A DNA stretch of 64,000 bases from Rhodospirillaceae bacterium (GTDB taxonomy: Bacteria > Pseudomonadota > Alphaproteobacteria > Dongiales > Dongiaceae): the NCBI GenBank assembly GCA_008012315.1, contig SSEL01000023.1, positions 186,001-250,000 on the forward strand, given 5' to 3'. This document shows, piece by piece, positions 5,565 to 52,549 of the stretch. A program made the translations under genes and the position numbers. A model generated the notes under the pieces. It did not search any database, was not told the DNA's origin, and worked only from the letters and a program-made list of their open reading frames with translations. Position 1 is the first letter of the stretch. Every line of letters starts with the position of its first letter.

Positions 5565-6890
5565 CTATATCTCCCGGCCGAGCAGCGTTTCGTCGTAGGG
5601 GAAAGTGGAAAGGAGCTGGAAGCCGGTTTCGGTCACCAGGACCTGCTGCTCCAGTTTCACCCCTTCCAAGCCGGTTTCTTCGGCGACATAGCTTTCGCAG
5701 CAGATCGTCATGCCGGGCGCCAATACACCGTCAGTGCCTTTCGTCTCGAAATGGCCGCGTCCGACGATTGTCGGCCATTGCCCATAGAGACCGACGCCAT
5801 GCCATGTCATGGGGATGGCAAGCGCCCGGTACTTCTCCGGCAGGAGATAGGCCTTCTCCGACATCTCCCGGAAAGTGGCACCGGGACGAATAAGATCCAG
5901 GTTGTGTTCCAGCTGCTCCCAGGCATAGCGGTAAAGCTGCCGCTGCGTTCCGGACGGGCGGCCGGGCGGGCAGAAGAATGTCCGGCTGATATCGGCGTCA
6001 TAGCCGAAGACGCCGATCATGTCGGTGTCCAATGCAACGAGATCACCCGGTCGCACCAACCGGTCGGTGGCCTCCTGATACCAGGGATTCGTCCGGCCGC
6101 CTGATGACAGGAGGCGGGTATCCATGTATTCGCCACCCATCTCGACATTGGTTCGCTCGAGGATCGACCAAAGCTGGATTTCGCTTTTCCCCGGTTCCAA
6201 AGCGCCCTGGAGCCGATGGATCGCGGCTTCGGCAACCGAGACGGAGACCGACATGCAGGCAACTTCCTCGGGCGATTTGATCGATTGCGCACGCGCCATC
6301 ATCCGTTGGACGGGAACAAGGGTGATGCCGAGATCTTCCAGGATCTTGGCGGAGAAATGGTCGACATGCCGGTCGATCGCGAGGCGCATCACATCGCCCG
6401 ATGCGCGAAGCAGCTCGGCGATTTCATTGGCCCAAAGCCGCACCTTGCGCTCGTCGTGCAAATCGGTGCTCGCCGCGATGCCGGCCCAGAATCGCGATGT
6501 TGCGGGACGCACCTCGCGAACGGTCTCCAGGCCGTTTGCCAGATGCTCCGATCCTGCATATTCGAACAAGGTCACCGTGCCATGGGCCGGGACGAAGGCC
6601 GTGCGGAAACTGCTATGCAGCGACCAGGGCTGCATGTTTCGCACACCCGAGGCATAGCGCGCATTCACCGGGTCGGATAACAAGGCGGCAGTAACATCTT
6701 CGCGCTGCAGCTCGGCTTGCAGTCTGGCCAGCCGATACGCACGTAACGCAAGCATGTCGATCTGGCCGGCGCCGTGATCCGAAACGGTCCGGCCACGCGA
6801 GCTGCGCGCGAGATCGGTCTGGCGATACCGGTCTGAATGAGAGTCCGGTGAATGAGAGTCCAGTGAATGAGAGTCCAGGGCCGCCATCAT
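5565..6890 (-). CDS. M24-family (DddP-like) metalloenzyme
   Basis: A 441-residue pita-bread fold protein of the M24/creatinase superfamily, close in motif layout to the DMSP lyase DddP. All dinuclear metal ligands can be seen: Asp288, Asp290 and Asp300 in ALDTD...DADISRT, His364 in WHGVGLYGQWP, Glu399 and Glu414. Their spacing (2, 10, 64, 35, 15) equals what I recall for characterised DddP. Family blocks GGEYMDTRLLSSG and NPWYQE are also present. However, the residue six after the histidine, a catalytic Asp in DddP as I recall it, is Gly370 here. The start has GGGAG five bases upstream. The N-terminus carries DSHS pentapeptide repeats encoded by a 15-bp tandem repeat. Lyase or hydrolase activity on a methylated onium compound is inference. 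Confidence 0.82.
   Translation of the reverse strand: MMAALDSHSLDSHSPDSHSDRYRQTDLARSSRGRTVSDHGAGQIDMLALRAYRLARLQAELQREDVTAALLSDPVNARYASGVRNMQPWSLHSSFRTAFVPAHGTVTLFEYAGSEHLANGLETVREVRPATSRFWAGIAASTDLHDERKVRLWANEIAELLRASGDVMRLAIDRHVDHFSAKILEDLGITLVPVQRMMARAQSIKSPEEVACMSVSVSVAEAAIHRLQGALEPGKSEIQLWSILERTNVEMGGEYMDTRLLSSGGRTNPWYQEATDRLVRPGDLVALDTDMIGVFGYDADISRTFFCPPGRPSGTQRQLYRYAWEQLEHNLDLIRPGATFREMSEKAYLLPEKYRALAIPMTWHGVGLYGQWPTIVGRGHFETKGTDGVLAPGMTICCESYVAEETGLEGVKLEQQVLVTETGFQLLSTFPYDETLLGREI
6834..6878. repeat. Three tandem 15-bp repeats
   Basis: TGAATGAGAGTCCGG followed by two copies of TGAATGAGAGTCCAG, head to tail. They lie inside the first 60 bases of the DddP-like gene and encode DSHS-x pentapeptides on the minus strand, so changes in copy number would keep the frame. 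Confidence 0.85.
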
Positions 6891-9013: not shown

Positions 9014-9634
9014 TCAGGGCTGGGCCAGCCAGCCTCTCAGCACCAACTCGACCTGCCGGTCCATCGCCTGCTTTTCATCCTCCAATGTCTTGAACTCATT
9101 GGCGATCATGCGATTGAAATTCTCGTTCGCCACGGCATAAAGGACTGCCACCATCGATGGGATGGGCGTGTCCTTCGAAATCAATGACAGGTCAAGGAGC
9201 GGCTCAAGCATTTCTTCAATGCGATTTTCGAACTCCTGCTTGATCAGCCGGAATTCGTCGTAGGCCTGATCATGAATGCGCAGCAGCGCTCCCATGGATT
9301 CACGCCACAGCTTGCGATCCTTTCTCGATCCGACACTTCTATTGTTCAGCAGCAAGAGACCCGATATCGCAGCAACCGGATCCAGGGTGGCCGATTTCTT
9401 GAAATAGTCGTCCAGCATGCCTGCGCGCCGGTCGCGTGCTTTCCAGAAGAAGGCGGTCAGTAGCGCCGCCTTGGTGGGGAAGTATCGATAGAGAGTCGGC
9501 GCCGAAACGTCCGCGCGTTCGGCGATTTCTTCCATCGTCGTACCTTCATAGCCCTTGCCGCGAAACAGCTCGGTTGCCGCATCGACGATGGCATCGCTGC
9601 GCTCCAGCCGCTTCCTTTCGCGCATTCCGGTCAA
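9014..9634 (-). CDS. TetR-family transcriptional regulator
   Basis: A 206-residue TetR regulator. Residues about 8-55 form the helix-turn-helix (VDAATELFRGKGYEGTTMEEI...VSAPTLYRYFPTKAALL), followed by an all-helical ligand domain without recognisable specificity. It is divergent from the Rieske oxygenase gene, and the 103-bp gap holds a perfect 16-bp palindrome overlapping a promoter-like sequence. It is therefore most likely the repressor of the oxygenase and of itself, induced by a substrate of the pathway. Confidence 0.92.
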   Translation of the reverse strand: MTGMRERKRLERSDAIVDAATELFRGKGYEGTTMEEIAERADVSAPTLYRYFPTKAALLTAFFWKARDRRAGMLDDYFKKSATLDPVAAISGLLLLNNRSVGSRKDRKLWRESMGALLRIHDQAYDEFRLIKQEFENRIEEMLEPLLDLSLISKDTPIPSMVAVLYAVANENFNRMIANEFKTLEDEKQAMDRQVELVLRGWLAQP

Positions 9635-9737: not shown

Positions 9738-10970
9738 ATGGGCAGGCATGCGGCGTATGATGATCTCTTGAATTTCGGTGTTCTTGAGCCCGAGGATGTT
9801 CTTGCCCCGCATCACTACACTGCCGTGCGATCCAATGGCCGGGCGATGCGGTCAATGCCCTTGTGGTGTTACACCTCGGAAAAATTCTTTCAGGCCGAGA
9901 AAGCCAAAATTTTCCTGCCACAGTGGAATCTCCTCGAACGGGAAGAGATCGTCCCAAATGTTGGCGACTACCACACCATGGCCTTCCTGGGCGTGCCTCT
10001 GATCGTCGCACGCGGACGCGATGAGAAGGTGCGGGTCTTCGCCAATACCTGCCGCCATCGCGGCGCCCTGCTCGCTGAAGGGAAAGGCAATTGCAAGGTC
10101 TTCCGCTGTCCCTATCATTTCTGGACTTATGGCCTCGATGGGCGGCTGATCGGTGCGCCGAATTACACGGATTCGACCGGCAAGTCGTTGATCGATAGCG
10201 ACAACAAGGAAGAATTCGGCCTTGTCGAAATCGATAGCGGCACCTGGGGTGGATTTATCTTCATTCGCTTTAAGGAAGGTCCGGAAACGCTCCAGCAGCA
10301 TCTGGGAACACTGGTCGATGTCCTTGCCTCCCACAGTCTTCAGGATATGCGATGCGCCCGGAAGGTTGTTTATGACATGGACGCAAACTGGAAATGCTTC
10401 GTCGAGAACTACATCGACGCCTATCATATCCCCTATGTCCATCGCGATTCCCTGGCGCAGTGGAAGACGACGGAATATGTGCGGATAAAGCCGAAGGGCC
10501 GCGAAACCCTGGCTCTTGCAAAACACGAGGGAAGCCAACTGCTCCTGCCATCGGCGGATTATGTCGGGTTCCCCGCCATGCCACAGATTGACGAAGACAA
10601 GGCGCGCGGCACATGGTTTGCGACGCTTCGTCCCGGCATGCTGATGACGCTTGGAAATGATGGTGCGCTGGTGTTCCAAAGCGAGCCGGTCTCGGCAAAG
10701 AAATCCAAACTCACCATCAGTTCGCTGTTTCCGAAATCGTATTTCGAGCGGGAAGATTTCGAGCGCATCTCGCAGAATTACTACCGGCGGAATGATATCG
10801 TTGTCGTTGAAGACAAAGAGATCGCCCTCCGGCAGTTTGCCGGGATCCAATCTCCCTATGCGCGGATTCCACGCCTCTGCAGTGAGGAAACCAGCCTCAA
10901 TACGTTCGGAAACTGGGTTCTCGATCAGGTTCTTCCCTCCGACGACCGCACGACAATTGCCGCTGAATAA
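9738..10970 (+). CDS. Rieske non-haem iron oxygenase, alpha subunit (betaine/carnitine-type demethylase family)
   Basis: A 410-residue ring-hydroxylating-type oxygenase. The [2Fe-2S] ligands are Cys105 and His107 (CRHRG) with Cys124 and His127 (CPYH). The mononuclear iron site lies in ENYIDAYHIPYVH, with Asp227, His230 and His235. The size and the YxDxYHxxxVH block match the group that includes glycine-betaine monooxygenase, stachydrine demethylase and carnitine monooxygenase, which split N-methyl or quaternary ammonium substrates. No reductase gene is adjacent, so electrons must come from a partner elsewhere. GAGAGGA precedes the ATG. It leads the M24 gene series (97 bp to the next start) and is probably repressed by the divergent TetR protein. 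The exact substrate is unknown. Confidence 0.9.
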   Translation: MGRHAAYDDLLNFGVLEPEDVLAPHHYTAVRSNGRAMRSMPLWCYTSEKFFQAEKAKIFLPQWNLLEREEIVPNVGDYHTMAFLGVPLIVARGRDEKVRVFANTCRHRGALLAEGKGNCKVFRCPYHFWTYGLDGRLIGAPNYTDSTGKSLIDSDNKEEFGLVEIDSGTWGGFIFIRFKEGPETLQQHLGTLVDVLASHSLQDMRCARKVVYDMDANWKCFVENYIDAYHIPYVHRDSLAQWKTTEYVRIKPKGRETLALAKHEGSQLLLPSADYVGFPAMPQIDEDKARGTWFATLRPGMLMTLGNDGALVFQSEPVSAKKSKLTISSLFPKSYFEREDFERISQNYYRRNDIVVVEDKEIALRQFAGIQSPYARIPRLCSEETSLNTFGNWVLDQVLPSDDRTTIAAE

Positions 10971-11066: not shown

Positions 11067-12233
11067 ATGCCACCGCCATTTGCAGCCTTTTCCGAAGCGG
11101 AGCATCGTCAACGCCTCAAACGGGCCCGGGCGGATCTCGCTGCTGCAGGCTTTGACGGATGCATCGTCATTGCACCGGAGAACCTGTTCTATCTGGCCGG
11201 CTACGATTCGATCTCGTCATATGTCGGACCGCAGGCGCTCATCTTCAGCGTCGACAAGACGCAGGACCCGACGCTTTTTGTCCGGAATATAGATGTGTCC
11301 CTGGTTCGGGAGACAAGCTGGGTCACGGATATCCGGACCTATCAGCTGAACGCCGATGATATCGGGTCGATTTTGGCGCGGATTGTCCTGGAGCATGGAA
11401 GCGGGACAGGACGATGGGGAATCGAGAAGCATTCCTATGCGGTCACCGCAGGCTATGCGGAGTTGTTGAAGAACTGCCTGCCCGATGTGAAACTCTCTGA
11501 TTCCGGTTTGGTCCTGAGCCGGCTTCAATACATCAAGTCACCTGCGGAAATTGCCTATGTCCGCGAGGCGGCGCGTTACGCGACTATCGGCATTACCACA
11601 GCAAAGAAAGCGCTGCGCCCCGGGATAGAAGAGATCATGCTCTGCGGCATCGTCGAGGGAGCGATGCGGGAAGCCGGCAGCGACTATCCGGCCATCCCGA
11701 CCGAATGCGCCAGCGGCGCCAGGTCGTCCGGCGGCCATGCGACCGCCATGCCGCGGGTGATTGCTGCCAACGAGATCGTTCATCTTGAATTCGCCGGGGT
11801 TGCCCGCCGCTACCATGCCGTTTCGATGATCACCATGGCAACGGGAGAGCCCGGCCGTCGCGCGCGATGGCTTTATGATGTTGCACGCGATTCTCTGCAA
11901 AGGGGTTTGGAAGCGTGCCGACCCGGCGCCAACGTTGTCGAAATTGATGAGGCATCGCTGGGGCCCATCCGGAAAGCAAATCTCGGCCATGCCGCACAGA
12001 TGCGGTTCGGGTTGGGAATCGGGATAGGCTATCCGCCCGTCTGGGTCGGGACCTTCCAGATCGACCGGTTCTCGACGGGCGAACTGCTCCCGGGCATGGT
12101 GTTCTATGTGCATGCCTGGCTGGGCCTCCAGGATGAAGGCCTCGGAGTCATGCTCGGCGGCAGCTATCTCGTGGGCGATACCGCCGTTGAACAGCTATCC
12201 GGCGCCGGCCCGGTCGAGCTTTTCGTCAGTTAA
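11067..12233 (+). CDS. M24/creatinase-family protein lacking metal ligands (paralogue 1)
   Basis: A 388-residue pita-bread protein with an N-terminal creatinase domain (residues 1-135) and an M24 catalytic domain. Metal-dependent members have D-x10/11-D, H, E and E. Here the first reads LEFAGVARRYHAV with Glu and Val, the His block reads FGLGIGIGYPPVWVG, and neither later Glu position is kept (FYVHAW, GGSYLV). It is therefore the most divergent of four neighbouring paralogues and must work without metal, as creatinase and the ectoine hydrolase EutD/DoeA do. Role is inferred as C-N or C-X bond hydrolysis of a methylated substrate, or a structural partner of its paralogues. It sits between the oxygenase and paralogue 2. 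Confidence 0.8.
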   Translation: MPPPFAAFSEAEHRQRLKRARADLAAAGFDGCIVIAPENLFYLAGYDSISSYVGPQALIFSVDKTQDPTLFVRNIDVSLVRETSWVTDIRTYQLNADDIGSILARIVLEHGSGTGRWGIEKHSYAVTAGYAELLKNCLPDVKLSDSGLVLSRLQYIKSPAEIAYVREAARYATIGITTAKKALRPGIEEIMLCGIVEGAMREAGSDYPAIPTECASGARSSGGHATAMPRVIAANEIVHLEFAGVARRYHAVSMITMATGEPGRRARWLYDVARDSLQRGLEACRPGANVVEIDEASLGPIRKANLGHAAQMRFGLGIGIGYPPVWVGTFQIDRFSTGELLPGMVFYVHAWLGLQDEGLGVMLGGSYLVGDTAVEQLSGAGPVELFVS

Positions 12234-12282
12234 AACCAGATTGGTGTGAACAGCGAACACACCGGTGAGAAGGGGCAGTCTG

Positions 12283-13542
12283 ATGTCTGAAGCCGCGTCG
12301 TATCTCGGACTTGCACCCGGCGCCTATGAGCCGGTATCTCCTGCGCATCAGCAGCTGGCTTTTTCAAAGAAAGAGTATCTATCGCGGATACGCAAGGTGC
12401 GCCAAGCGATGGCGGATGAGGGCATTGATCTGCTCTATGTCACGACGCCCGAACATATCTGCTACCTGCATGGCTATTTTGCGAGCTGGTATAAGGCAAA
12501 CAGCCCCATGCGCTATCCGCAATTCTACGGTACCGTCATCCATGTCGATCATGACGAATTCATTCATTTCGATAATCCAACGGAACTACCCGTCCTGGCG
12601 AAGACCTCGGTCTCGACCGACCACGTCTTTTTCCCCAGCCGCGAGGCATCGATCGTCTTGCCATTCATTACCGGCGAGTTGAAAGCGCGGGGATGGCTGA
12701 AAGGCACGGTCGCGATGGAATATTGGAGCTACGTGCCCAACCGCGCGGTAAGCACCATGCTGGAAGGTGCCTTTCTCGCAGAAGGCTGCCGCGTCGTCGA
12801 TGGTAGCACGATCTTGCGGCGCATCCGCCGGGCGAAATCGCCGACAGAGATCTCCTATATCGAGAAAGCGGTCGCGCTCGCGGATATCGGCCATGAAGCG
12901 ATCAGGAGCTGCATGCGGCCGGGCATGACCGAGCTGGAGGTCTTCGGCGAAGCAACGCGTGCCATGATGGCGGCCGGAAGCGAATTCCCGGCGCTCATCC
13001 CCATCTTCAATGCGACGGAAGTCAAGGAGGGGCGCCCGGTTTCGGCAGGACATTCCATGGCTGGCCGCAAAGTGATCAATAAGGGCGAGTTCCTGACGGC
13101 GGATCTCTGCGGCGTCTATAACCGATACCATGGGAACGTCATGCGCGGCTTCTTCCTGGGAGATCCACCCAAGGCAATGGTCGAGCAGCATAAAAAGGCA
13201 GCCGGCGTCTACGATGTCATCTCGCGTGAGGTGAAGGCGGGGATGACCGTTCGCGACTTCAACGCGGTGTTGAAGGCGTATTACGAGAGCGTCGGCCTTT
13301 GGGACTCGCCCGGCTGGGCTCTCGGCTACGAGCTCGGTCTCAGCCTGCCGCCGGATTGGGTCGGAGACTTCTTCTTTCATTTTAAAGATGAAAAGTATCT
13401 CGATCGCGTGTTCGAAGAGAATATGGTGACGAACTTCGAAAGCCTCTTTAACACATGGCTGATCGATACCTGCGTTTATACCAAATCGGGAACGCGTTTC
13501 ATGTCGAAGCTGCCGCCGGAGGTCATTCCTGTGGATGGATGA
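12283..13542 (+). CDS. M24/creatinase-family protein, metal-free type (paralogue 2)
   Basis: A 419-residue creatinase/EutD-type M24 protein. The creatinase N-domain contains DLLYVTTPEHICYLHGY. In the catalytic domain the first metal Asp is kept (TADLCGVYNRYHGN) but the second is Asn, the His motif is replaced by YELGLSLPPDWVG, one Glu remains (NFES) and the last is Asp (LIDT). The PPDW motif recalls ectoine hydrolase (YPPDWGE). Start ATG 12283 has AGAAGGGG upstream; an in-frame GTG at 12265 is less likely. It follows paralogue 1 after 49 bp. The substrate is unknown; hydrolysis of an amidine, ureido or betaine-like group is inference. Confidence 0.83.
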   Translation: MSEAASYLGLAPGAYEPVSPAHQQLAFSKKEYLSRIRKVRQAMADEGIDLLYVTTPEHICYLHGYFASWYKANSPMRYPQFYGTVIHVDHDEFIHFDNPTELPVLAKTSVSTDHVFFPSREASIVLPFITGELKARGWLKGTVAMEYWSYVPNRAVSTMLEGAFLAEGCRVVDGSTILRRIRRAKSPTEISYIEKAVALADIGHEAIRSCMRPGMTELEVFGEATRAMMAAGSEFPALIPIFNATEVKEGRPVSAGHSMAGRKVINKGEFLTADLCGVYNRYHGNVMRGFFLGDPPKAMVEQHKKAAGVYDVISREVKAGMTVRDFNAVLKAYYESVGLWDSPGWALGYELGLSLPPDWVGDFFFHFKDEKYLDRVFEENMVTNFESLFNTWLIDTCVYTKSGTRFMSKLPPEVIPVDG

Positions 13543-13596
13543 CGCGGCGTTCCGCGTGTGAAAAATGAACATGAAGATAGGCGCTATATCCGAATT

Positions 13597-13610
13597 TTCT
13601 TCGCGAAGAA
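13597..13610. promoter_or_regulatory. Perfect 14-bp palindrome upstream of M24 paralogue 3
   Basis: TTCTTCGCGAAGAA reads the same on both strands and lies about 100 bp before the start codon of the next gene, in an AT-richer gap of 164 bp. It could be an operator. No protein is assigned. Confidence 0.4.
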
Positions 13611-13706
13611 TTGGAATTTAATCTGTTTGACTTCGTGCTTTTTCGCTCGAAGGCTTACGGCCGGCTTCTACGCGACAGCCGCAGCAACGTTACCTCGGGA
13701 GGTATC

Positions 13707-14918
13707 ATGAAAAGCTATCTTCGCCAGCAAATCGATTGGCCCCAAGCATTTCCACCCGAAGAATATGCCGAGCGGCGGAAGAAGGTGCGGGACGTATTGG
13801 TCGAGCGAAACATCGATGCGCTCTATGTGACCACGCCGGCGAACCTGACTTACCTGTTAGGTTATGACATGATCTGGTATCACCTTCGAAACCTGACGGG
13901 ACTGCTCATCCGGGCGGACCGCGATGACACATTGTTCTTCGATGCCGTCGGCCATAGGACAATCGTATCGACGACGCCTGAAATCAAGGAAGTGATCTGG
14001 TTCGAACGCGAAAGCATCGACAATCTCATTGAAAAGGTCGGCAAGGAATTTGCCGCGCGTGGACTGGCCCAAGCGCGAATTGCGACCGAACCTTGGGCCT
14101 ATTCACCACATGCCACGGTCATGTCGGCACTCCAGCAGCGGCTCCGCCAGAACGGCGCCGAAATACTCGATGAATCCTTGCTGATCGAGCGTATCCGTTT
14201 GGTGAAGTCCCCACGGGAGATTGAGGTGATGAAGTCGGCGGCCAGCATCGCCGATGCCGCCATGTCAGCGGCGCGCGATGCCTTGAAGCCCGGCATCATG
14301 GAGACAGAAATCGAAGCAGTCATCATGCAGTCAATGATGCAAGCCGGCGGTGGCTATCCCGGCATCCGCACCATGATCGGCTCCGGGCCGAGAGCGGGCA
14401 CTCATCATAGTCCGGCCCACCATCGGAAATTAATGAAAGGTGACCTTGTCTTCATCGATTTTTGCAGCTCGCTGCATCGCTATCACGTGAATCTCAACAG
14501 GACCTTTTCATTGGGCAAGCCCGACGGCCGATGGACCGATTTGATGGAAAAGTCCGCCGGATGCGTCGATGCCATTCTGGCAGCGGTCAAACCGGGTGAC
14601 TCGTGGCGAAAAGTCGCCCAGATCGGTGATGAATATCTCGAAGCACATGCGTTGAAAAAGTACATCTGGTGGGCCGGGGGATACGCTCTTGGTATCGCCA
14701 TACCGCCTGACTGGGTCGGCTCACATTTCGCCGAGCCGAGAGAGGACATTCCCGATCAGCCCCTGCAACCCGGCATGGTTTTCAATTACGAGAACCAGTT
14801 TGACGTCTGGGAGGATTGGCCGGGAGGAAGTGGTGCTGCCTATATCGAAACATTATTGGTGACGGATCTCGGTCTCGACATCATGTCCAAGCTGCCTCGC
14901 CACCTCGTCACGGTGTAG
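13707..14918 (+). CDS. M24/creatinase-family protein, metal-free type (paralogue 3)
   Basis: A 403-residue member of the same group. The start ATG 13707 is preceded by CGGGAGGTATC, a strong ribosome-binding site; an upstream in-frame TTG is not supported. The N-domain block DALYVTTPANLTYLLGYDM is standard. Catalytic-domain motifs are FIDFCSSLHRYHVN (first Asp kept, second Asn), GGYALGIAIPPDWVG (no metal His), NYEN and YIETLL (both Glu positions kept). Together with paralogues 2 and 4 it shares the signature D-x7-RYH-x-N plus PPDWVG, so the three form one subfamily that diverged before or within this locus. A separate promoter is likely, given the 164-bp gap. Confidence 0.83.
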   Translation: MKSYLRQQIDWPQAFPPEEYAERRKKVRDVLVERNIDALYVTTPANLTYLLGYDMIWYHLRNLTGLLIRADRDDTLFFDAVGHRTIVSTTPEIKEVIWFERESIDNLIEKVGKEFAARGLAQARIATEPWAYSPHATVMSALQQRLRQNGAEILDESLLIERIRLVKSPREIEVMKSAASIADAAMSAARDALKPGIMETEIEAVIMQSMMQAGGGYPGIRTMIGSGPRAGTHHSPAHHRKLMKGDLVFIDFCSSLHRYHVNLNRTFSLGKPDGRWTDLMEKSAGCVDAILAAVKPGDSWRKVAQIGDEYLEAHALKKYIWWAGGYALGIAIPPDWVGSHFAEPREDIPDQPLQPGMVFNYENQFDVWEDWPGGSGAAYIETLLVTDLGLDIMSKLPRHLVTV

Positions 14919-14950
14919 AGAAGCGAGATCATCCAGGCGCCCTCAATATT

Positions 14951-15041
14951 CAAATTTGCTTTGTGCCACATGCGAATTTTTGTGCCATTGACAGGTTTGG
15001 TTCGCAGGATCAGGGTCAGCAGACAGCGGCGTACAAATAAA
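14951..15041. promoter_or_regulatory. Shared 91-bp regulatory module, copy A
   Basis: CAAATT at 14951, GCGAATTTTT at 14972, TTGACA at 14988 and CGGCGTACAAATAAA at 15027-15041. All four blocks recur at the same internal distances (0, 21, 37 and 76) at 22474-22564, upstream of the dimethylformamidase genes. The sequence between the blocks differs. It ends 50 bp before M24 paralogue 4 and probably drives that gene and the acyl-CoA genes behind it. Confidence 0.7.
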
Positions 15042-15091
15042 ATTTAAAAACGCACGGCACTTCGTCCGAAGAAGCTGCGATGGAGGACAAC

Positions 15092-16333
15092 GTGAAGAAG
15101 AATTTTCAAGAAGCGTTGGCTGCTGCACCCGATTTCAAAAGCCTTCCATTTCCCGAAGACGAATTTTCCAGCCGGCTTCAGCGGCTGCGAAAGGAAATGC
15201 AAGCACAGAAGATCGATCTTCTTTTCCTCAGTTCTCCCGAAAGCATCTTCTACCTGACCGGATTTCAATGTGAATGGTACCAGGCGCAGAGCGGCCGGGC
15301 ATTTCCGCCTACCAGCGGCTTGGCAGTCTCGGCGGACCGCGAGGGCTTCATTCATTTCGAGACACCGAGCGAAGCAATCCTCAGTCATGTCTCCACGGTT
15401 TCGAAAGATATCCGGATCTTCCCATTGGACGCCCGCCGCGACGGCCAGACATTCATTCTCCAGGAGCTGCGCGCCGCTGGCATGCTGAAAGGGAAGGTCG
15501 GGCTTGAACGCTACAGCTACCGCCCCAATCCTGTTATCAGCGACAAATATGTCGCCGCATTTGAAGGCGCCGGCCTGGAGGTCGTGGATGCCACGGATTT
15601 GTTGCGGAAGCTGCGGCGGACAAAGTCGCCGTTGGAAATGCAGTGCGTCGAAGAAGCGAGCCGAATTGCCGATATTGGCATGAAGGCGGCAATGGCGGCG
15701 ATTCGCCCCGGTGTCACCGAGCTGGAAGTGTTCGGCGAGATGATTGCCGCCATGACCAAGGCGGGCGGTGAGTTTCCCGGCATCCTGCCGCCCGTCATGT
15801 CGGGCTTTCGGGCAAATTGCAGCCACCCTATCGCGAGCCGCAGGGTCATCCAGAAGGGCGAAAGGGTCAATGTCGATGTCTCGGGCGTCTATAATCGCTA
15901 TCACAGCAATATCTGCCGCGGCTTCTATGTCGGCGAACCGCCAAAGGCCGTCCTCGATTTTCACAACCGGTCGGTCGGCGTTTTCAAGCTGATCGAGGAG
16001 ATGATCCGCCCCGGCATGGAGGTCCAAAGCCTTCTGAAGGCGGTCACCGATTACTATAAGGATGAAGGCCTGCTCGAGGAATCCTATTGGAGCGGCGGCT
16101 ATGAGCTCGGCATTGCTTTCCCGCCGGATTGGGTCGGCGCATTCATTTACGATAATAGCATCACAAAGCCGGGTGAGACATTCGACCCGATGACGGTGGT
16201 CAATCATGAATGTGTCTTCTTCGGGCCGCAGAAGAGTGGGCTCGCTTTCACCATCGAAACGCTGATCTTCAACCAGAGCAAAGGGCGGATCGCCAGCAAG
16301 TTTCCGCGCGAGCTCCAGATCCTCGCGGCATAG
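15092..16333 (+). CDS. M24/creatinase-family protein, metal-free type (paralogue 4)
   Basis: A 413-residue creatinase/EutD-type protein. I place the start at GTG 15092, which has GGAGG five bases upstream; ATG 15080 would add four residues and has a weak site. Motifs are VDVSGVYNRYHSN (first Asp, then Asn for the second), GGYELGIAFPPDWVG, NHEC and FTIETLIF, so two acidic positions and not the metal set are kept. The N-domain includes DLLFLSSPESIFYLTGF. It follows regulatory module copy A and ends two bases before the acyl-CoA synthetase start, so it is translationally linked to acyl-CoA chemistry. Substrate unknown; a hydrolase or lyase releasing a carboxylic acid for the next enzyme is a reasonable inference. 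Confidence 0.83.
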   Translation: MKKNFQEALAAAPDFKSLPFPEDEFSSRLQRLRKEMQAQKIDLLFLSSPESIFYLTGFQCEWYQAQSGRAFPPTSGLAVSADREGFIHFETPSEAILSHVSTVSKDIRIFPLDARRDGQTFILQELRAAGMLKGKVGLERYSYRPNPVISDKYVAAFEGAGLEVVDATDLLRKLRRTKSPLEMQCVEEASRIADIGMKAAMAAIRPGVTELEVFGEMIAAMTKAGGEFPGILPPVMSGFRANCSHPIASRRVIQKGERVNVDVSGVYNRYHSNICRGFYVGEPPKAVLDFHNRSVGVFKLIEEMIRPGMEVQSLLKAVTDYYKDEGLLEESYWSGGYELGIAFPPDWVGAFIYDNSITKPGETFDPMTVVNHECVFFGPQKSGLAFTIETLIFNQSKGRIASKFPRELQILAA

Positions 16334-16335
16334 AG

Positions 16336-18456
16336 ATGACGGCGCACTTTCGTCCGGGATCGCAGGCGCACCGGCTGGATCCGCTGCTGAGGCCGAGGTC
16401 CATTGCGATTGTCGGGGCGTCGGGTAAGCCCGGCTCCTACGGTCTCGGTATGGTCGAGGCATGTGTGAAGGCGGGTTATGCGGGCGAAATTTTCCTGATC
16501 AATCCCAACTGCCGGGAAATCGGTAGGCGGCCCTGCTATCCAAGCCTCAGCGCGTTACCCCTTCCTCCGGAACATTGCATCCTTGGCGTTGCGAATATCC
16601 GCATCGAGGCGGCGCTGCGAGAGGCCATAGATGCCGGCGCAAAGGCGGCCACCATTTTCGGCAGCGGCCTTTTGGACGACGGCATCGAGCCGCCGCTCCT
16701 CGAGCGCTTGCGTCAGATGGCGCGCCAGGCCGGAATCCTGATTTGCGGCGGCAATGGATCCGGTTTCTACAATCGGGCCGATAACGTTCGTTGCCAGATG
16801 TCAGGAGGTGCTGCGGAGCCCGTCGGCCCGGTGACCCTGGTCGCGCAATCGGGCTCCATCTCCGCGGCGCTATGTGGAAATGACGGGCGTCTGCAGTTCA
16901 ATCTGACTGTCTCCTCGGGACAGGAAATAACCACGGATGTCGCCGACTATCTGGACTTTGCGCTGCAATTGGAGAGTACGCGCGCTATCGGTCTCTTCAT
17001 CGAAACCATCCGGAATCCCCAGGCCTTCGTCCGCGTCCTGGAGCGCGCGGCAGAGATGGACATTCCCGTCGTGGTCAACAAGGTGGGGAGAAGTGAAGCG
17101 AGCCAGCGCTTTGCCGTGAGCCATTCCGGCGCACTGACGGGAAATGACGCGGTCTATGACGCCGTTTTCGATCGCTATGGCGTGTTGCGGGTCGATGATC
17201 CGGATGAACTGGTGGCGACCCTTCAACTGCTATCGACCGGCCGGCGGCCATCCATCGGTGGCAATGGCATTGTGGCGATGACCGATTCCGGCGGCGAGCG
17301 TGAATTGCTGGCGGATATTGCTGCGGCACATGATGTGCCGTTTGCGACCCTGGAGCCGGAAACGCGGGCGGCTCTGCAAAACCGGCTCGAATATGGGCTG
17401 GAGGCGGAAAATCCGTTGGATGCCTGGGGAACAGGCCATGGATTCGAGGCAATTTTCGCCGGCAGCATGTCGGATTTGCTGGCGGACCCCAACGCGTCGC
17501 TCGGCGTTTGGGTGGCGGATCTGCGTGACGGTGTTCCATATCATGAAGCCTATGGGCGGGTCGCGGCAGAGCTGGTGCGCTCAACCGACAAACCGCTCGC
17601 CATTGCCACCTGCTATTCCAAATGCCTCAATACCGTCCTGTCGACCATGCTTCGTGACGCAGGCGTCCCGGTCCTGGAGGGCATGCGGCCGGCGATGGTC
17701 GCATGCCGCCGCGCGCTCGATTACATGCAATTTCGCTCGCGTGCCGCGATGGCGTTTCCGGCGCAGCCGGCTGCATCCATGGTCAATGCCTGGAAAGCAC
17801 GATGCGCGACGGGCGTGCCGCTGGATGAGGGGGAAAGCCTGGCGCTCTTGTCGGATTTCGGCGTCCCCGTCATCCCTCATCGGATTGTCGAGGATATCGG
17901 CTCGGCGGCGGAAGCGGCGTCGCAGATCGGTTTTCCCGTTGCCGTCAAAACCGCAATGCCCGGTATTCATCATAAATCCGATGTCCAAGGGGTCTATCTT
18001 GGCTTGAAGGATCGCACGGCCGTTGAGTGGGCTTATGAAGACCTTGCCGGTCGCCTCGGGCCGAGAGTGCTGGTCTCGGCCATGGCGCCTCGCGGAACGG
18101 AAGTTGTCTTCGGCGCGATCAACGACCTGCAATTCGGCCCCGTGGCGATGATCGGTGCGGGGGGCATCCTCGTCGAACTGCTGCGCGATACACGCTTCGT
18201 CATACCGCCTGTCGATCCTCACGCGGCCCGGACGTTAATCGATCGCTTGGCCGTGAGGCCGATTTTCGATGGCCTGCGGGGACGGCCGGCCCTTGATGTC
18301 GATGCGCTGGCCGCGGCTTTCTCCCGCTTCTCCGTCATGGTCGCCACCCTGGGAGAAAGCCTGGCCGAGGTCGACGTGAACCCGATCATTCTCAGCGCCG
18401 AAGGAGCCGTTGCGGTCGATGGGCTTATCGTTCCCGCGGCACGTAACCGTCATTAA
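16336..18456 (+). CDS. NDP-forming acyl-CoA synthetase (single-chain ACD type)
   Basis: A 706-residue fused acid-CoA ligase of the acetyl-CoA synthetase (ADP-forming)/AcdA-AcdB family. Domain order: CoA-binding Rossmann domain (RSIAIVGASGKPGSYGLG, residues about 19-110), two succinyl-CoA-ligase-like flavodoxin domains with the phosphohistidine motif SHSGALTGND near residue 260, and a C-terminal ATP-grasp domain (from about 490, AVKTAMPGIHHKSDVQGV). It links a carboxylic acid to CoA at the cost of ATP to ADP. ATG 16336 lies two bases after the M24 paralogue 4 stop. An enoyl-CoA hydratase follows, so the acid is probably unsaturated or dehydrogenated later. Confidence 0.88.
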   Translation: MTAHFRPGSQAHRLDPLLRPRSIAIVGASGKPGSYGLGMVEACVKAGYAGEIFLINPNCREIGRRPCYPSLSALPLPPEHCILGVANIRIEAALREAIDAGAKAATIFGSGLLDDGIEPPLLERLRQMARQAGILICGGNGSGFYNRADNVRCQMSGGAAEPVGPVTLVAQSGSISAALCGNDGRLQFNLTVSSGQEITTDVADYLDFALQLESTRAIGLFIETIRNPQAFVRVLERAAEMDIPVVVNKVGRSEASQRFAVSHSGALTGNDAVYDAVFDRYGVLRVDDPDELVATLQLLSTGRRPSIGGNGIVAMTDSGGERELLADIAAAHDVPFATLEPETRAALQNRLEYGLEAENPLDAWGTGHGFEAIFAGSMSDLLADPNASLGVWVADLRDGVPYHEAYGRVAAELVRSTDKPLAIATCYSKCLNTVLSTMLRDAGVPVLEGMRPAMVACRRALDYMQFRSRAAMAFPAQPAASMVNAWKARCATGVPLDEGESLALLSDFGVPVIPHRIVEDIGSAAEAASQIGFPVAVKTAMPGIHHKSDVQGVYLGLKDRTAVEWAYEDLAGRLGPRVLVSAMAPRGTEVVFGAINDLQFGPVAMIGAGGILVELLRDTRFVIPPVDPHAARTLIDRLAVRPIFDGLRGRPALDVDALAAAFSRFSVMVATLGESLAEVDVNPIILSAEGAVAVDGLIVPAARNRH

Positions 18457-18501: not shown

Positions 18502-19311
18502 ATGTCGGATGAGCTAGTCACTGAGATCAAGGACAAGATAGCGCATGTTCGCATCAACCGGCCCAAGGCGATGAATGCGATCCATCCCAGCATAATGGGC
18601 GAGTTCAAGCAGCTGTTCCGGGATCTGGATGACGATAGAAACGTTTCGGTCATTGTGCTTTCCGGAACAGGCGATCACTTCGGCGCCGGCTATGACCTGA
18701 AGTTCGGCTGGGGTGAACATTACGGCCGCGACATATTCGGGCAGCGCAAGATGCTTCAGGATTGTGTCGATTTTGAATATACGCCCTGGGACTGCAGTAA
18801 ACCGGTTATCGCGATGGTAAAGGGCTATTGCCTGGCCGGCAGCTGCGAACTGGCCATGATGTGCTGCATCACGATTGCCGCCAAAAATGCGAAATTCGGT
18901 GAACCCGAGATACGGTTCTCTACATCGCCGCCGGCCGTCATCATGCCTTGGATCGTCGGCCTGAAGAAAGCGCGGGAACTGCTTTATACCGGCGATATGA
19001 TCGACGCCGATGAAGCATTGCGAATCGGCATGATCAATCGGGTCGTGCCGGACGAAGAACTGGAGGAACGTACCTTCAAGCTTGCCCGGCGCATGGCCGC
19101 CATTTCGGTGGAGGGCCTGCAAACAACCAAAGCCTCGATCAATCGGGGTGCGGAGATCGCCGGCCTCCGGCAAGCGATCACCTATGGGATCGAACAGGGG
19201 GCCATGCTGGATTCCGCCGAGACCGAGGCATTGCGGAAGTTTTCTGAAATTCGGACAAAAGAAGGCCTGTCGGCCGCAATCCGGTGGCGCGAAAGCCAAT
19301 TTGTCGAATGA
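18502..19311 (+). CDS. Enoyl-CoA hydratase/isomerase family protein
   Basis: A 269-residue crotonase-fold protein. The oxyanion-hole block GAGYDLKFGWG and the later LAGSCELAMM stand in the expected places. Both glutamates used by true hydratases appear present, one in SCEL and one in GEPEI, so water addition to a trans-enoyl-CoA is plausible; other crotonase reactions cannot be excluded. The start follows the synthetase stop by 45 bp with TGGAG upstream. In this context it would act on the CoA thioester made by the preceding enzyme, for example an acryloyl- or crotonyl-type CoA. That pairing is inference from order only. Confidence 0.88.
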   Translation: MSDELVTEIKDKIAHVRINRPKAMNAIHPSIMGEFKQLFRDLDDDRNVSVIVLSGTGDHFGAGYDLKFGWGEHYGRDIFGQRKMLQDCVDFEYTPWDCSKPVIAMVKGYCLAGSCELAMMCCITIAAKNAKFGEPEIRFSTSPPAVIMPWIVGLKKARELLYTGDMIDADEALRIGMINRVVPDEELEERTFKLARRMAAISVEGLQTTKASINRGAEIAGLRQAITYGIEQGAMLDSAETEALRKFSEIRTKEGLSAAIRWRESQFVE

Positions 19312-19452: not shown

Positions 19453-21513
19453 ATGACCCGTGATCCTCGCTATGACATTCTCTTCGAACCCATCAAAATT
19501 GGCCCGGTGGTGGCCAAGAACAGGTTCTTCCAGGTGCCGCATTGCAATGGCATGGGAATCGTCTATCCAAGTTCCATGATTGCCATGCGCGCCATGAAGG
19601 CCGAAGGCGGGTGGGCCGTCATCTGTACCGAGGAGACGGATATCCACCCGACGGGCGATTTATCGCCTTTGGCCGAAGGGCGATTGTGGGACGACCGGGA
19701 TATTCCGGTTTTCGCGCGGATGAACGACGCCGTTCACAAACATGGCGCGCTGGCTGGCGTGGAACTGACGCATACGGCAAATCGCGATGCCTGCCTCTTC
19801 AGTCGCGAAGTGCCGATCAATGTCTCCCACGCACCGGCAGGAGACTATCCGGGCCAAGCCCGGCGAATGGACCGGGCGGACATCCGGAACTATCGTCGCT
19901 GGCATCGTGAGGCGGCTCTGCGGGCTCAGCGCGCCGGCTTCGATATCATATATGTCTATGTCCGCGCCAATACCTCGATAAACGGCAATTTCCTGTCGCG
20001 CCTGCTGAATGACCGCACCGACGAATATGGCGGCAGCCTCGAGAATCGGTTGCGCCTGACCCGTGAGGTCATCGAAGATACGATAGAGGCCGTCGGGGCA
20101 AACTGTGCTGTTGCCGTGCGATGGACGGTCGACGATGCCATGACGCCGGATGGAGAGCCTGACCCGACGGAAGGCCGCGAGGCAATCGAGATGCTGGCCG
20201 AACTGCCTGATCTCTGGGATGTCAACCTTCGCACCTGGCGCCGCGATTCCATGCCGTCTCGTTTCGGGCCGGAAGGATCGCAGGAGGAGACGATCCGGTT
20301 CGTCAGGGAGATTACGAGCAAGCCCGTGGTCGGGGTCGGACGGTTCACCTCGCCGGATACGATGGTCTCGCAAATTCGCCGTGGCGTGCTGGATTTCATC
20401 GGTGCGGCCCGACCTTCCATCGCCGATCCATTCCTTCCCAGGAAAATAGAAGAGGGTCGGATCGACGACATTCGCGAATGCATCGGGTGCAATATGTGTG
20501 TGACGTCGGATTTCCTCATGGTGCCGATGCGGTGCACGCAAAATCCGACTGCCGGGGAGGAATGGCGCAAGGGTTGGCACCCTGAACAGATCCAATCCCG
20601 CAAGTCGGAAGACAATGTCCTGATCGTTGGCGCCGGACCCGCAGGGTTGGAAGCGGCCCGGGCCCTCGGCCGCCGCGGATACGAGGTGACCTTGGTCGAT
20701 TCACGCGATGAGGCCGGTGGCCGCGTCGCGCTTGAAAGCAAGCTCCCCGGGTTGGCCGCCTGGGGGCGTGTGCGCGACTACAGGTTGCAGCAAATCCAGC
20801 AGATGGGGAATGTGCAGCTCTATCTTCAAAGCGCCCTCACTGCGCCGGAGATAGTCGAGTACGGCTATAGCAGGGTTGTGCTCGCAACCGGCAGCACATG
20901 GCGAAAAGACGGAATCGGCCGGGCGCTCAGTCACGAAATTCCGGGGTTAAGCGAGATAGATGTGTTGACGCCGGATGACGTTTTCCTGAACAGACATGTC
21001 AATGGGCCGGTGATCGTCTATGACGACGACCATTATTACATGGGTGGCGTGATCGCCGAGAAACTGCGCCGGGAAGGGCATGAGGTGACGCTGGTGACGC
21101 CATCGGCAGACGTCTCGTCCTGGTCAAAATATACGCTAGAACAGCCGTTCATCGAGAAACGGCTGCATGAGATCGGCATCTCCATTGTCGAGAAGCATGC
21201 CATCGCAATCGCCTGTCGCGGTGAAGTCGAGCTCGAGCATATACGCAATGGTAGCCGCCATCGCGTTCCTTGCGGCACGCTGGTCCTTGTGACGATGCGT
21301 TTACCGAACGACACGCTCTACTATGAGCTGACGTCGGATGATGCCGTCCTCCAGAGCGCGGGTATCAAGTCGGTCACCCGCATTGGCGACTGTTATGCGC
21401 CATCGACGATTGCTGCGGCCGTCTATTCGGGGCATCGGGTCGCACGCGAGATGGATGAGCCGATTGCCGAGATATCCTTCAAGCGCGAACTTATGGAGCT
21501 GGCGTCTGCCTGA
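19453..21513 (+). CDS. Trimethylamine-dehydrogenase-like FMN/[4Fe-4S]/ADP flavoprotein
   Basis: A 686-residue enzyme of the old-yellow-enzyme/TMADH family (dimethylamine and trimethylamine dehydrogenase, N-methylproline demethylase, 2,4-dienoyl-CoA reductase). Domains: FMN TIM barrel (1-340), an iron-sulphur site at Cys343, Cys346, Cys349 (CIGCNMC) and Cys361, then a nucleotide-binding domain beginning VLIVGAGPAGLEAARALG. The cysteine pattern matches TMADH closely. The substrate-site segment reads YVYVRANTS, where TMADH has a Tyr-x-x-His, so the His is missing and the substrate probably differs. Oxidative N-demethylation downstream of the Rieske enzyme is the best guess from context. It is convergent with a LysR gene 13 bp away. 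Confidence 0.85.
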   Translation: MTRDPRYDILFEPIKIGPVVAKNRFFQVPHCNGMGIVYPSSMIAMRAMKAEGGWAVICTEETDIHPTGDLSPLAEGRLWDDRDIPVFARMNDAVHKHGALAGVELTHTANRDACLFSREVPINVSHAPAGDYPGQARRMDRADIRNYRRWHREAALRAQRAGFDIIYVYVRANTSINGNFLSRLLNDRTDEYGGSLENRLRLTREVIEDTIEAVGANCAVAVRWTVDDAMTPDGEPDPTEGREAIEMLAELPDLWDVNLRTWRRDSMPSRFGPEGSQEETIRFVREITSKPVVGVGRFTSPDTMVSQIRRGVLDFIGAARPSIADPFLPRKIEEGRIDDIRECIGCNMCVTSDFLMVPMRCTQNPTAGEEWRKGWHPEQIQSRKSEDNVLIVGAGPAGLEAARALGRRGYEVTLVDSRDEAGGRVALESKLPGLAAWGRVRDYRLQQIQQMGNVQLYLQSALTAPEIVEYGYSRVVLATGSTWRKDGIGRALSHEIPGLSEIDVLTPDDVFLNRHVNGPVIVYDDDHYYMGGVIAEKLRREGHEVTLVTPSADVSSWSKYTLEQPFIEKRLHEIGISIVEKHAIAIACRGEVELEHIRNGSRHRVPCGTLVLVTMRLPNDTLYYELTSDDAVLQSAGIKSVTRIGDCYAPSTIAAAVYSGHRVAREMDEPIAEISFKRELMELASA

Positions 21514-21526
21514 CTCGCTATTCCGT

Positions 21527-22456
21527 TCAGGAATAGGGGCCGGGGATGGCCGGCTTGTCGGTCTGTGTTATTTCCGTTGGCAGGTCGCTGACCTTGTTCA
21601 TGAACCATCGTTTGAAAGCGCGTATCGTCGCGTTGTTGCGGCTGCGATGCGGTGTGATCATGCAGAAAGGCGCCGGGGCCGGAACGGAAACCGAGAGGAC
21701 ACGAATCAACTGGCCCTCTCGAAGGTCCCGCTCCACCAGAATTTCATCGGCGATCGCAATGCCGCATCCTGCCCGGGCGGCCTGATGCGCGACGAATGTA
21801 TCGCCAAGATACATATTGGCCTTTGCGCGAATCTCGCGCCGGCCGATACCTTGCAGCAGGTGATCCCAGTCGGAGCCGTCATAGTTTCCGTGGATCAGCG
21901 TGTGCTCGCGGATATGTTCGATCTTGGAAAGGGGGGCGCCGAGATGCAGCAGATTGGGGCTGCAGACAGGGAAGTAGGTGGTGTGGATATGCGTGACTTC
22001 CTTTTCACCGGGCACATGCACGTCTCGCCATGAGATGACGAGATCGACGGTCTCATCGATCTGTGTGATCGGCACCCAGGTGAACTCGGCTAAACTGAAC
22101 TGCTCAATGAACTCGCGCGCATATTCCAGGATCGGCGAACTGGCGATAGCCGGGGTCGTGGCTATCTTGATGCTGCGTTCGGAGAGCGGTTCCTTCAGTT
22201 CACCGATGAGCCCATGTATTTCATCCAATGAGTCTGTGAGTGTGGCTAGAAGCCGACGGCCCTGTGGGGTGAGAACGATCTGCCGGCCTTTGCGGCCCAG
22301 TAAGGGAATGTCGAGCTGCTCCTCCAAATGGCGGAGCTGATAACTCACCGCGCTATGGGTGACCGACAATTCGCTCGCCGCGCGGTGAAGATTGCCGTTC
22401 CGGCCGACAGATTCGAAGGTGATCAGGCTTTGTAGCGTGGGCAGCTTTCGTTTCAT
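21527..22456 (-). CDS. LysR-family transcriptional regulator (GcvA-like)
   Basis: A 309-residue LysR protein with an N-terminal winged helix (residues 6-65, NLHRAASELSVTHSAVSYQL) and an effector domain. It is divergent from the dimethylformamidase-like pair, and regulatory module copy B begins 18 bp upstream of its start codon. That makes it the best candidate to control the amidase operon, and through module copy A also M24 paralogue 4 and the acyl-CoA genes. Effector unknown. Confidence 0.9.
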   Translation of the reverse strand: MKRKLPTLQSLITFESVGRNGNLHRAASELSVTHSAVSYQLRHLEEQLDIPLLGRKGRQIVLTPQGRRLLATLTDSLDEIHGLIGELKEPLSERSIKIATTPAIASSPILEYAREFIEQFSLAEFTWVPITQIDETVDLVISWRDVHVPGEKEVTHIHTTYFPVCSPNLLHLGAPLSKIEHIREHTLIHGNYDGSDWDHLLQGIGRREIRAKANMYLGDTFVAHQAARAGCGIAIADEILVERDLREGQLIRVLSVSVPAPAPFCMITPHRSRNNATIRAFKRWFMNKVSDLPTEITQTDKPAIPGPYS

Positions 22457-22746: not shown

Positions 22747-23058
22747 ATGAGTGCTGAGGATCCGCAGGTCGATCAATCGCGCCGCGACTTGATCGAGGAA
22801 TTCCGGCGCAAGCGGATCGGGCGACACAGCCCGGATTTGCGACTGTTGCTGAACCGGATGCGCATGAGCGAGGGCAAGCGTCCCTATATTCTGATTTGCA
22901 CGAAGCCGCATCGCGAATGGTGTCTCGGCCGTAAGAGCGGCGCGCGCGGCTCGGAAATCGAGGTTATGCCGGAGGTCATCTTCCATTCGCCGGAGGAGGC
23001 GGAATGGGAGATCTTCAAGCGCCGCTGGCAGGAATTGACCGGGGAGACCCTGACATGA
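22747..23058 (+). CDS. dmfA1: N,N-dimethylformamidase-like small subunit
   Basis: A 103-residue basic, helical protein that precedes and overlaps the large-subunit gene by four bases (ATGA). In known dimethylformamidases a small alpha subunit of about 130 residues pairs with a beta subunit of about 760, the same order and overlap. The C-terminal part (FHSPEEAEWEIFKRRWQEL) resembles the end of those small subunits. ATG 22747 is preceded by GGGAGGGG; an in-frame ATG at 22723 is possible. Assignment rests largely on the neighbour; taken alone the protein would be hypothetical. It probably has no catalytic residues and stabilises the large chain. Confidence 0.7.
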   Translation: MSAEDPQVDQSRRDLIEEFRRKRIGRHSPDLRLLLNRMRMSEGKRPYILICTKPHREWCLGRKSGARGSEIEVMPEVIFHSPEEAEWEIFKRRWQELTGETLT

Positions 23059-25353: not shown

Positions 25354-26415
25354 ATGCCACATAAAAAAAGAAAACATATCGGCCTTTTGCTTGCAGGTCT
25401 CGTCGTCGCGAGCATTGCCGGTGGATCGGCAAAAGCCGATGACGAAAAAAAACTTGTCATAAGCAGCTGGGGAGGCGCCTTCACCAAGGCCACTTTGGAC
25501 AACTTCGTGACTCCCTTCGCCAAGGAAAAGGGCATCGACTATCAAATGGTCGATGCATCGGGGAAGCATCTCGCCCAGGTACAGGCTCAGACCAGCGCCG
25601 GAAAAATAACCTGGGATGTGATCGATTCTTTGGATGAGGCGACCGCAGCGCTGATGTATAAGCGCGGCTTGCTGGAGACGATACCGCCAGATGTAAAAAA
25701 GGTCCTGGAAGAGAATTCGGCGCCGGGCATGGTGACGGATTTTGGCGTCATGCTCTCCAGTATCGCCAACCCCATCATTTGCAATAACGAGAAGGTCAAG
25801 GCTTGCCCCAGCAACGCAGCCGAGTTCTTCGATACCGACAAGTTTCCGGGTGAGCGTTCCGCCGACAGCAATGTTTTCGATATGCTGATCCTTGCTTTAA
25901 AGGCGGTCGGCGTTGGCGACCGGGCGCCGACGGATGAAGAATTGGACAAGGCTTTCGCCCTGATCGAAAAGGTCCAGCCCTCGCTGCGGACCCTGTGGGA
26001 TTCAGGCGAACAGAGCATGCAGATCATGCGCAACGGCGAAGCGGTGATCACGCAGATCTGGAACCGTCCGGCCCGGAAGCTGGTCGAGGAATCGCCTGGC
26101 AAGTATACGGTCAATTGGCAAGATGCACCGTATGGGCCTGCCTACATCGTCGTGGTCAAGGGTGCACCGCACCCGAAGCTGGCTTTCCAATACATGGAAT
26201 ACTACGCAACGCATCCGGAGCAGCAGGCAAAATGGTCGTCGACGACCTCCTACGGTGTTGCCAATCCCAAAGCCCTGGCAAGTATCGACCCGGCCGCCAA
26301 GGAGTGGTTGCCTGAATCGCATTTGAAATCGGTAACGCATGGCAACATTGAGTGGTGGATCGAAAATCAGAAAGCGATGGTGCAGCGCTGGCGCCAGGTA
26401 ATTGGCGGCAGTTAA
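25354..26415 (+). CDS. ABC transporter substrate-binding protein (spermidine/putrescine type)
   Basis: A 353-residue periplasmic binding protein of the PotD/PotF class. A signal peptide (KKRKHIGLLLAGLVVASIAGGSAKA) ends near residue 29, and the mature start KKLVISSWGGAFTKATLDNFV is the family hallmark. GGGAGG precedes the ATG. It is the first gene of a complete importer (binding protein, two permeases, ATPase) directly behind the amidase genes. The ligand is probably a cationic or amide compound that the pathway consumes, not necessarily a polyamine. Confidence 0.92.
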   Translation: MPHKKRKHIGLLLAGLVVASIAGGSAKADDEKKLVISSWGGAFTKATLDNFVTPFAKEKGIDYQMVDASGKHLAQVQAQTSAGKITWDVIDSLDEATAALMYKRGLLETIPPDVKKVLEENSAPGMVTDFGVMLSSIANPIICNNEKVKACPSNAAEFFDTDKFPGERSADSNVFDMLILALKAVGVGDRAPTDEELDKAFALIEKVQPSLRTLWDSGEQSMQIMRNGEAVITQIWNRPARKLVEESPGKYTVNWQDAPYGPAYIVVVKGAPHPKLAFQYMEYYATHPEQQAKWSSTTSYGVANPKALASIDPAAKEWLPESHLKSVTHGNIEWWIENQKAMVQRWRQVIGGS

Positions 26416-26464
26416 GGCATTAAGGATGAGGAAGCAATCGGGTCTCCTCTAAAGCCGTCAATTG

Positions 26465-26513
26465 CCCGGGCCAGACCATCTTTCCCCGCTGGAGAAAGCA
26501 GGTCTGGCCCGGG
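26465..26513 (+). other. Long hairpin between binding-protein and permease genes
   Basis: CCCGGGCCAGACC (26465-26477) pairs perfectly with GGTCTGGCCCGGG (26501-26513), with a weaker inner CTTT/AAAG stem. No T run follows, so it is more likely an mRNA-stabilising or attenuating structure that raises binding-protein output over the permeases than a full terminator. Confidence 0.6.
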
Positions 26514-26552
26514 TGTTGATCTGCATCATCTGTTTTCGGTCGAGTCTGCCCC

Positions 26553-28243: not shown

Positions 28244-28268
28244 TCAATCTGCTGAGAGGGCGGAACTG

Positions 28269-36942: not shown

Positions 36943-36953
36943 TTGCAGCTCCT

Positions 36954-50617: not shown

Positions 50618-50709
50618 GCAAGCCCCCAATATCGCCAATGCTCTATCACTACAAATACGACTCAGCGTCTACATCACCCTTTGTGGCCAAGCAATGTCGC
50701 GCGAGCCTT

Positions 50710-52517: not shown

Positions 52518-52549
52518 GAATGAACCCTCCATCCACGTAGTCCTGTTAG

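Follow-up and report, generated by a model that had tools for sequence, protein, structure and literature searches.

Four M24 genes of separate origin, predicted to encode metal-free hydrolases, in a probable catabolic operon of a Rhodospirillaceae bacterium

Introduction

Why would four genes of the M24 superfamily, none of them with the full metal set of an M24 peptidase, stand side by side behind a Rieske oxygenase gene? The question is raised by a stretch of 64,000 nucleotides from a Rhodospirillaceae bacterium (assembly GCA_008012315.1, contig SSEL01000023.1, positions 186,001 to 250,000), here called the window. To our knowledge, creatine and ectoine are among the very few substrates known for metal-free M24 hydrolases. 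M24 genes are numerous (14–38 matches in each of the nine genomes, besides the source genome, in which we counted them), and Xaa-Pro peptidase is a common annotation for them. An operon joining four groups of such enzymes with genes for the likely next steps would offer a concrete route to substrates and to a corrected annotation.

Our results favour a catabolic operon with a linked acylase and a polyamine-type importer, in which the four M24 genes (here A to D) probably encode four different, active, metal-independent C–N hydrolases of the DoeA/creatinase kind. The initial annotation had placed four consecutive creatinase/EutD-type genes without the full metal set behind the Rieske oxygenase gene, and the open reading frames (ORFs), Pfam matches and alignment all agree with it. 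The four ORFs are consecutive, on the + strand and at the positions first reported. Likely starts (11067, 12283, 13707 and 15080) were chosen from the upstream sequence; GGGAGG precedes the start of gene C at 13707.

11067..12233, + strand: M24 gene A, DoeA-like; catalytic His224, Glu241 (at the position of DoeA Glu255), RYH 248-250, His349
12283..13542, + strand: M24 gene B (longest ORF from GTG at 12265); His263, Asp280, RYH 287-289, Glu392, numbered from 12265
13707..14918, + strand: M24 gene C (longest ORF from TTG at 13611); His266, Asp283, RYH 290-292, Glu394, numbered from 13611
15080..16333, + strand: M24 gene D; His249, Asp266, RYH 273-275, Asn277, PPDW 348-351, Glu377

Origin of the four genes

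In a maximum-likelihood tree, A, B, C and D fall into four separate clades, each with 100% bootstrap support and each with members from other genomes. Approximately unbiased (AU) tests reject both A–D (p 5e-6) and B–D (p 5e-96) as a single clade. The tree shows that the four genes were assembled from separate lineages and not by duplication at this locus. In one genome (G275; 3.5 Mb, of which the largest contig makes up 3.4 Mb), all four types are present but lie hundreds of kilobases apart. The term tandem paralogues, used in the initial annotation, therefore has to be given up. As evidence against its own reading, that annotation had named paralogues from unrelated families with single known substrates; separate orthologue groups are indeed what we find, known substrates are not.

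Same-superfamily neighbours on one strand might also be recent tandem copies of a single gene, now in decay, and true duplicates of this sort do exist elsewhere (see below). This origin is extremely improbable for A–D, which share 24–38% identity with one another versus 61% (A), 73% (B), 66% (C) and 69% (D) with their best relatives in other genomes. Under the model used, the tree and the AU test rule out local tandem duplication. The named relatives of D are mostly Hyphomicrobiales.

Other series of M24 genes were found in three genomes of one family: four genes in 6 kb in G129 (contig C12, locus L097), three in 4.5 kb in G231 (C4, L098) and three in 4.4 kb, at a contig end, in G395 (C49, L099). 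Like A–D, they comprise three to four same-strand genes within about 6 kb, and the metal set is absent throughout. They differ in being true tandem duplicates (53–97% identical) and in having Arg in the catalytic His column. EutB/EutC-like neighbours occur at two of the three loci (L097 and L098). The series in the window had been called unusual; series of three or four genes evidently occur elsewhere, but among the genomes examined only the window has one made up of four old, separate groups. The three genomes with duplicated series (family f114) carry 33–38 M24 genes in 3.1–3.9 Mb, a strong family expansion. In the literature we found nothing relevant, either on an expansion of M24 genes or on their occurrence with dimethylformamidase (DMFase) or Rieske genes.

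Metal site and active site

All four proteins match PF00557 (E 3e-18 to 1e-34; 66.8–120.6 bits against a gathering score of 23) as well as PF01321 (Creatinase_N), the latter above the curated cut-off. Metal-site columns were taken from an alignment with Pyrococcus prolidase (ligands Asp-Asp-His-Glu-Glu), creatinase and Halomonas DoeA. The full dinuclear set of an M24 metallopeptidase is absent from 4/4 of A–D. Specifically, B–D read D, N, Y, E and I at the ligand columns, with E/D one column beyond the last site; the first Asp and the first Glu are kept, the bridging Asp is replaced by Asn and the His by Tyr, so that two to three of the five positions are retained. Gene A reads E, V, L, H and G. 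We may fairly infer that A–D are metal-free as far as a dinuclear site is concerned.

The catalytic His common to prolidase, creatinase (His232) and DoeA is present in all four proteins, as is the [E/D]-x7-RYH motif of DoeA. D-x7-RYH-x-N and PPDWVG, first noticed as shared by three of the genes, are found in B, C and D, and their core ([E/D]-x7-RYH, PPDW) occurs in ectoine hydrolase too. Gene A had been described as having lost nearly all acidic positions. This holds at the ligand sites but does not amount to decay, as the pattern E-RYH-H-G is fixed in 11/11 rows of the A clade, with Glu at DoeA position 255 (which we take to be the covalent residue). Residue 255 of DoeA entry 6twk_A is Glu.

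Each orthologue group (5–11 members) has its own active-site pattern, which is invariant inside the group, and the combination that marks a metal-free M24 hydrolase (catalytic His kept, dinuclear set lost) is likewise invariant per group. This is the pattern expected from selection on the active site. Judged by these residues, A–D seem to be functional hydrolases of the DoeA/creatinase kind that work without metal; that they are decayed pseudo-enzymes we rejected on the strength of the invariant, group-specific residues. A structure model of gene D (pTM 0.75) has DoeA (Z 34.6) and creatinase (Z 33.5) as its nearest folds.

The initial annotation had also proposed a heteromeric enzyme with inactive partners, that is, with at least one inactive M24 subunit. 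Dimers are the usual form of such M24 proteins, and other lineages do have M24 proteins that are not enzymes (Ebp1-like, Spt16). We nevertheless regard a heteromer of this sort as very unlikely, given that every type has orthologues outside such series, in loci of their own, and that the active-site pattern is invariant in each group.

Comparison with known M24 systems

The closest known system is ectoine hydrolase (DoeA/EutD; 6TWJ, 6TWK, 6YO9), which shares with A–D the M24 fold, the best model match, the catalytic His, [E/D]-x7-RYH and PPDW (PPVW in A). However, A–D are only 22–28% identical to DoeA, and B–D have Asp in place of Glu255 and Asn/Glu at two further sites. Against the DoeA/EutD models of NCBIfam they score 107–164 bits (best 164.2), whereas the curated cut-offs are 575–613. 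No ectoine genes (doeB, eutBC, ehu/ueh transporter) were found among the annotated genes of the island. The source genome has its ectoine/hydroxyectoine locus elsewhere (L095, contig C27), with DoeA (52%), DoeB (70%), and EutB and EutC (55%), so ectoine is not a likely substrate of A–D; on these scores and the separate locus we rejected ectoine degradation by the island. The ectoine locus also carries a second DoeA-like gene. More than one M24 gene per catabolic cluster has been described in Thermodesulfobacteriota, where ectoine clusters have two eutD homologues (PMC13188858); those clusters were read as ectoine clusters, while the island here is without ectoine genes.

Creatinase (1CHM, 1KP0, 7YTO) is likewise a metal-free M24 hydrolase, and its reference sequence was checked residue by residue against PDB 1CHM. 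His232 is kept in A–D and the Glu358 position in B–D only, but the Glu262, Phe62, Arg64 and His376 positions are lost in all four, and identity is 19–23%. None of A–D therefore has the creatinase set (His232, Glu262, Glu358 and Phe62/Arg64 positions).

The third comparison is with DddP, a dimethylsulphoniopropionate (DMSP) lyase of the same superfamily. The window has a DddP-like gene 4.2 kb upstream of A:

5565..6890, − strand: DddP-like M24 metalloprotein, probably outside the run described below

A–D belong to another clade and are without the iron ligands of DddP. In an alignment to 4b28, the DddP-like gene keeps all six DddP metal ligands (Asp295, Asp297, Asp307, His371, Glu406 and Glu421; PMC4108388). 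Its product is probably no DMSP lyase, and we rejected DMSP breakdown as its role: Ile and Gly replace the DddP-invariant Tyr366 and Asp377, and it scores 286 against 600 bits in NCBIfam. A 42% paralogue is found in the same genome (L007). The source genome has 16 PF00557 matches, 5 of which (A–D and the DddP-like gene) lie within 10.8 kb. The count of five M24 genes in 11 kb given initially is thus right, with the reservation that the DddP-like one belongs to a separate clade and keeps its metal ligands.

Genomic context and recurring partner genes

A–D belong to a + strand run of eight genes, from the Rieske oxygenase gene to a histamine-dehydrogenase-like gene ending at 21513. It is uninterrupted by any annotated opposite-strand gene, and the intergenic gaps are 2–164 bases with the starts chosen here. 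The other members of the run and the genes around it are:

9014..9634, − strand: TetR-type regulator (PF00440, E 9e-20), divergent from the run and likely its local regulator
9738..10970, + strand: Rieske oxygenase alpha subunit, Rieske and mononuclear-iron motifs both intact; PDB matches led by carnitine monooxygenase, with phthalate and naphthalene dioxygenases next
16336..18456, + strand: ADP-forming acyl-CoA ligase (acetate/3-hydroxypropionate-CoA ligase type); the longest ORF starts at 16210, within D
18502..19311, + strand: crotonase / enoyl-CoA hydratase family
19453..21513, + strand: amine dehydrogenase of the histamine / trimethylamine dehydrogenase family (PDB comparison)
21527..22456, − strand: LysR regulator
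23004..25325, + strand: DMFase large-subunit / N-acetyl-beta-phenylalanine acylase family
25354..29345, + strand: polyamine-type ATP-binding cassette (ABC) importer (SBP_bac_8, two permeases, ATPase)

The DMFase large subunit and N-acetyl-beta-phenylalanine acylase are members of one family. The acylase-like protein keeps the DMFase iron ligands Tyr399, Tyr440 and Glu521 (PMC7686228). The gene at 19453-21513 had been a candidate old yellow enzyme ('OYE') acting as dienoyl-CoA reductase, which we rejected because the PDB comparison groups it with histamine/trimethylamine dehydrogenase. When compared with histamine dehydrogenase (residues from PMC10180351), it keeps Cys31 for the covalent flavin mononucleotide and the Asp358-equivalent, while Gln65 is replaced by Glu and Asn115 by Arg.

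Several of these partners recur beside relatives of A–D. Orthologues of gene C adjoin a DMFase/acylase-like gene in four genomes (G001, G013, G014 and G178) and, at 44–48%, also in G351. At one locus of G351 (L120), a genome of another family, ligase, crotonase, DMFase-like, C-type M24, Rieske and histamine-dehydrogenase-like genes lie within 20 kb, and a locus in G275 has B-type M24, histamine-dehydrogenase-like and ligase genes within 20 kb. The D orthologue loci of Aestuariivirga and Rhizobiales bacterium Y(2018) have the same LysR regulator (66%), ligase (63%) and crotonase (77–79%), along with a polyamine-type ABC importer and a histone-deacetylase (HDAC)-type amidohydrolase; an HDAC-type gene also stands beside D in one gammaproteobacterial metagenome-assembled genome. 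Some relatives' loci thus resemble the EutD–EutE pair, in that a second amidohydrolase gene lies beside the M24 hydrolase gene. Elsewhere in G351 (L084, contig C214), three Rieske oxygenase genes in tandem come after a D-like M24 gene.

The run could be a loose pile of unrelated scavenging genes gathered by transfer, in which each hydrolase has its own substrate and no path is shared. A-type orthologues on plasmids do have quite different neighbours (flavin adenine dinucleotide oxidoreductase, serine hydrolase, succinate-semialdehyde dehydrogenase, aminotransferase). Yet C-, D- and B-type genes are repeatedly found near ligase, crotonase, histamine-dehydrogenase-like, Rieske and acylase-like genes, and we consider such a pile quite improbable. 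Because the partner genes recur around C-, D- and B-type genes elsewhere, they suggest the breakdown of an imported cationic amine with an N-acyl or amidine-type group.

The multi-step path proposed initially, with A–D acting successively on one compound, is in keeping with the single same-strand run and its short gaps, with the adjacency of A-type and D-type genes in two other genomes (L082 and L083), and with the co-occurrence of the types in the same genomes. It is less easily reconciled with the wide spacing of the four types in G275, or with the fact that elsewhere each type is found in its own locus, often with its own transporter or regulator. We regard a strict succession as unlikely.

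Proposed pathway

We prefer the reading of A–D as four different hydrolases within one catabolic operon, which most likely breaks down a nitrogen-rich compound; sequence, model fold and neighbours support both the catabolic island of the initial annotation and the kinship with creatinase and DoeA. The importer would take up a cationic amine bearing an N-acyl, amidine or guanidine group, which the Rieske oxygenase may trim or hydroxylate. Going by their residues, the M24 enzymes would use the conserved His for acid-base catalysis, with the Asp/Glu at the position of DoeA Glu255 serving as the carboxylate, and would hydrolyse C–N bonds of related compounds or of successive intermediates. The DMFase/acylase-like enzyme could then strip the acyl group that is left, just as EutE/DoeB follows EutD/DoeA. 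The released amine would be oxidised by the amine dehydrogenase, and the ligase and crotonase would feed the acid into central metabolism.

A wider proposal, to which we give about an even chance, is that the operon encodes an as yet undescribed route for degrading a compound of the N-acyl, amidine or quaternary amine type, in which several distinct M24 hydrolases without metal would work alongside a DMFase-type iron acylase and a histamine-dehydrogenase-type dehydrogenase. The B, C and D groups would then be new enzyme activities, and an M24 hydrolase with a second amidohydrolase would be a general catabolic pair, of which EutD–EutE is one case.

Several observations weigh against these proposals. 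No second amidohydrolase was found at five C-type loci (L054, L117–L119 and L121) or at three D-type loci (L041, L043 and L045). In Paracoccus the DMFase large subunit had no activity on its own (PMC7686228); in the window, none of the small ORFs near 22.4–26.5 kb was identified as a small subunit. A reductase gene for the Rieske oxygenase was not seen nearby. B–D may hold one metal, given D, E and E/D at ligand positions. That the run is a single transcript we infer from the shared strand and the short gaps. We rejected dedicated promoters or terminators between its genes, as counts of such patterns were not above those in shuffled sequence. In favour of the operon reading, the A, B/D and C types are found together in the same few genomes of 385, far above chance over the 384 other genomes (p 6e-7 to 5e-10), but these p-values ignore kinship, and the genomes come from few families and are M24-rich.

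Other features of the window

Near the catabolic run, TniQ, TniB and TnsB-like genes of a Tn7/Tn5053-type element lie at 34040-39131 (− strand). No CRISPR-like repeat array was found between 29.0 and 47.5 kb of the window. A metallo-beta-lactamase-fold protein at 43033-44124 (+ strand) strongly matches the PADLOC candidate defence family PDC-M48B; the adjacent ORFs are without Pfam matches. PADLOC also detected a HerA and SIR2 gene pair, a known anti-phage defence type, at 47610-50638 (− strand), which is adjoined by a gene for a protein with DUF1883 and TIR domains at 51717-52532 (− strand).

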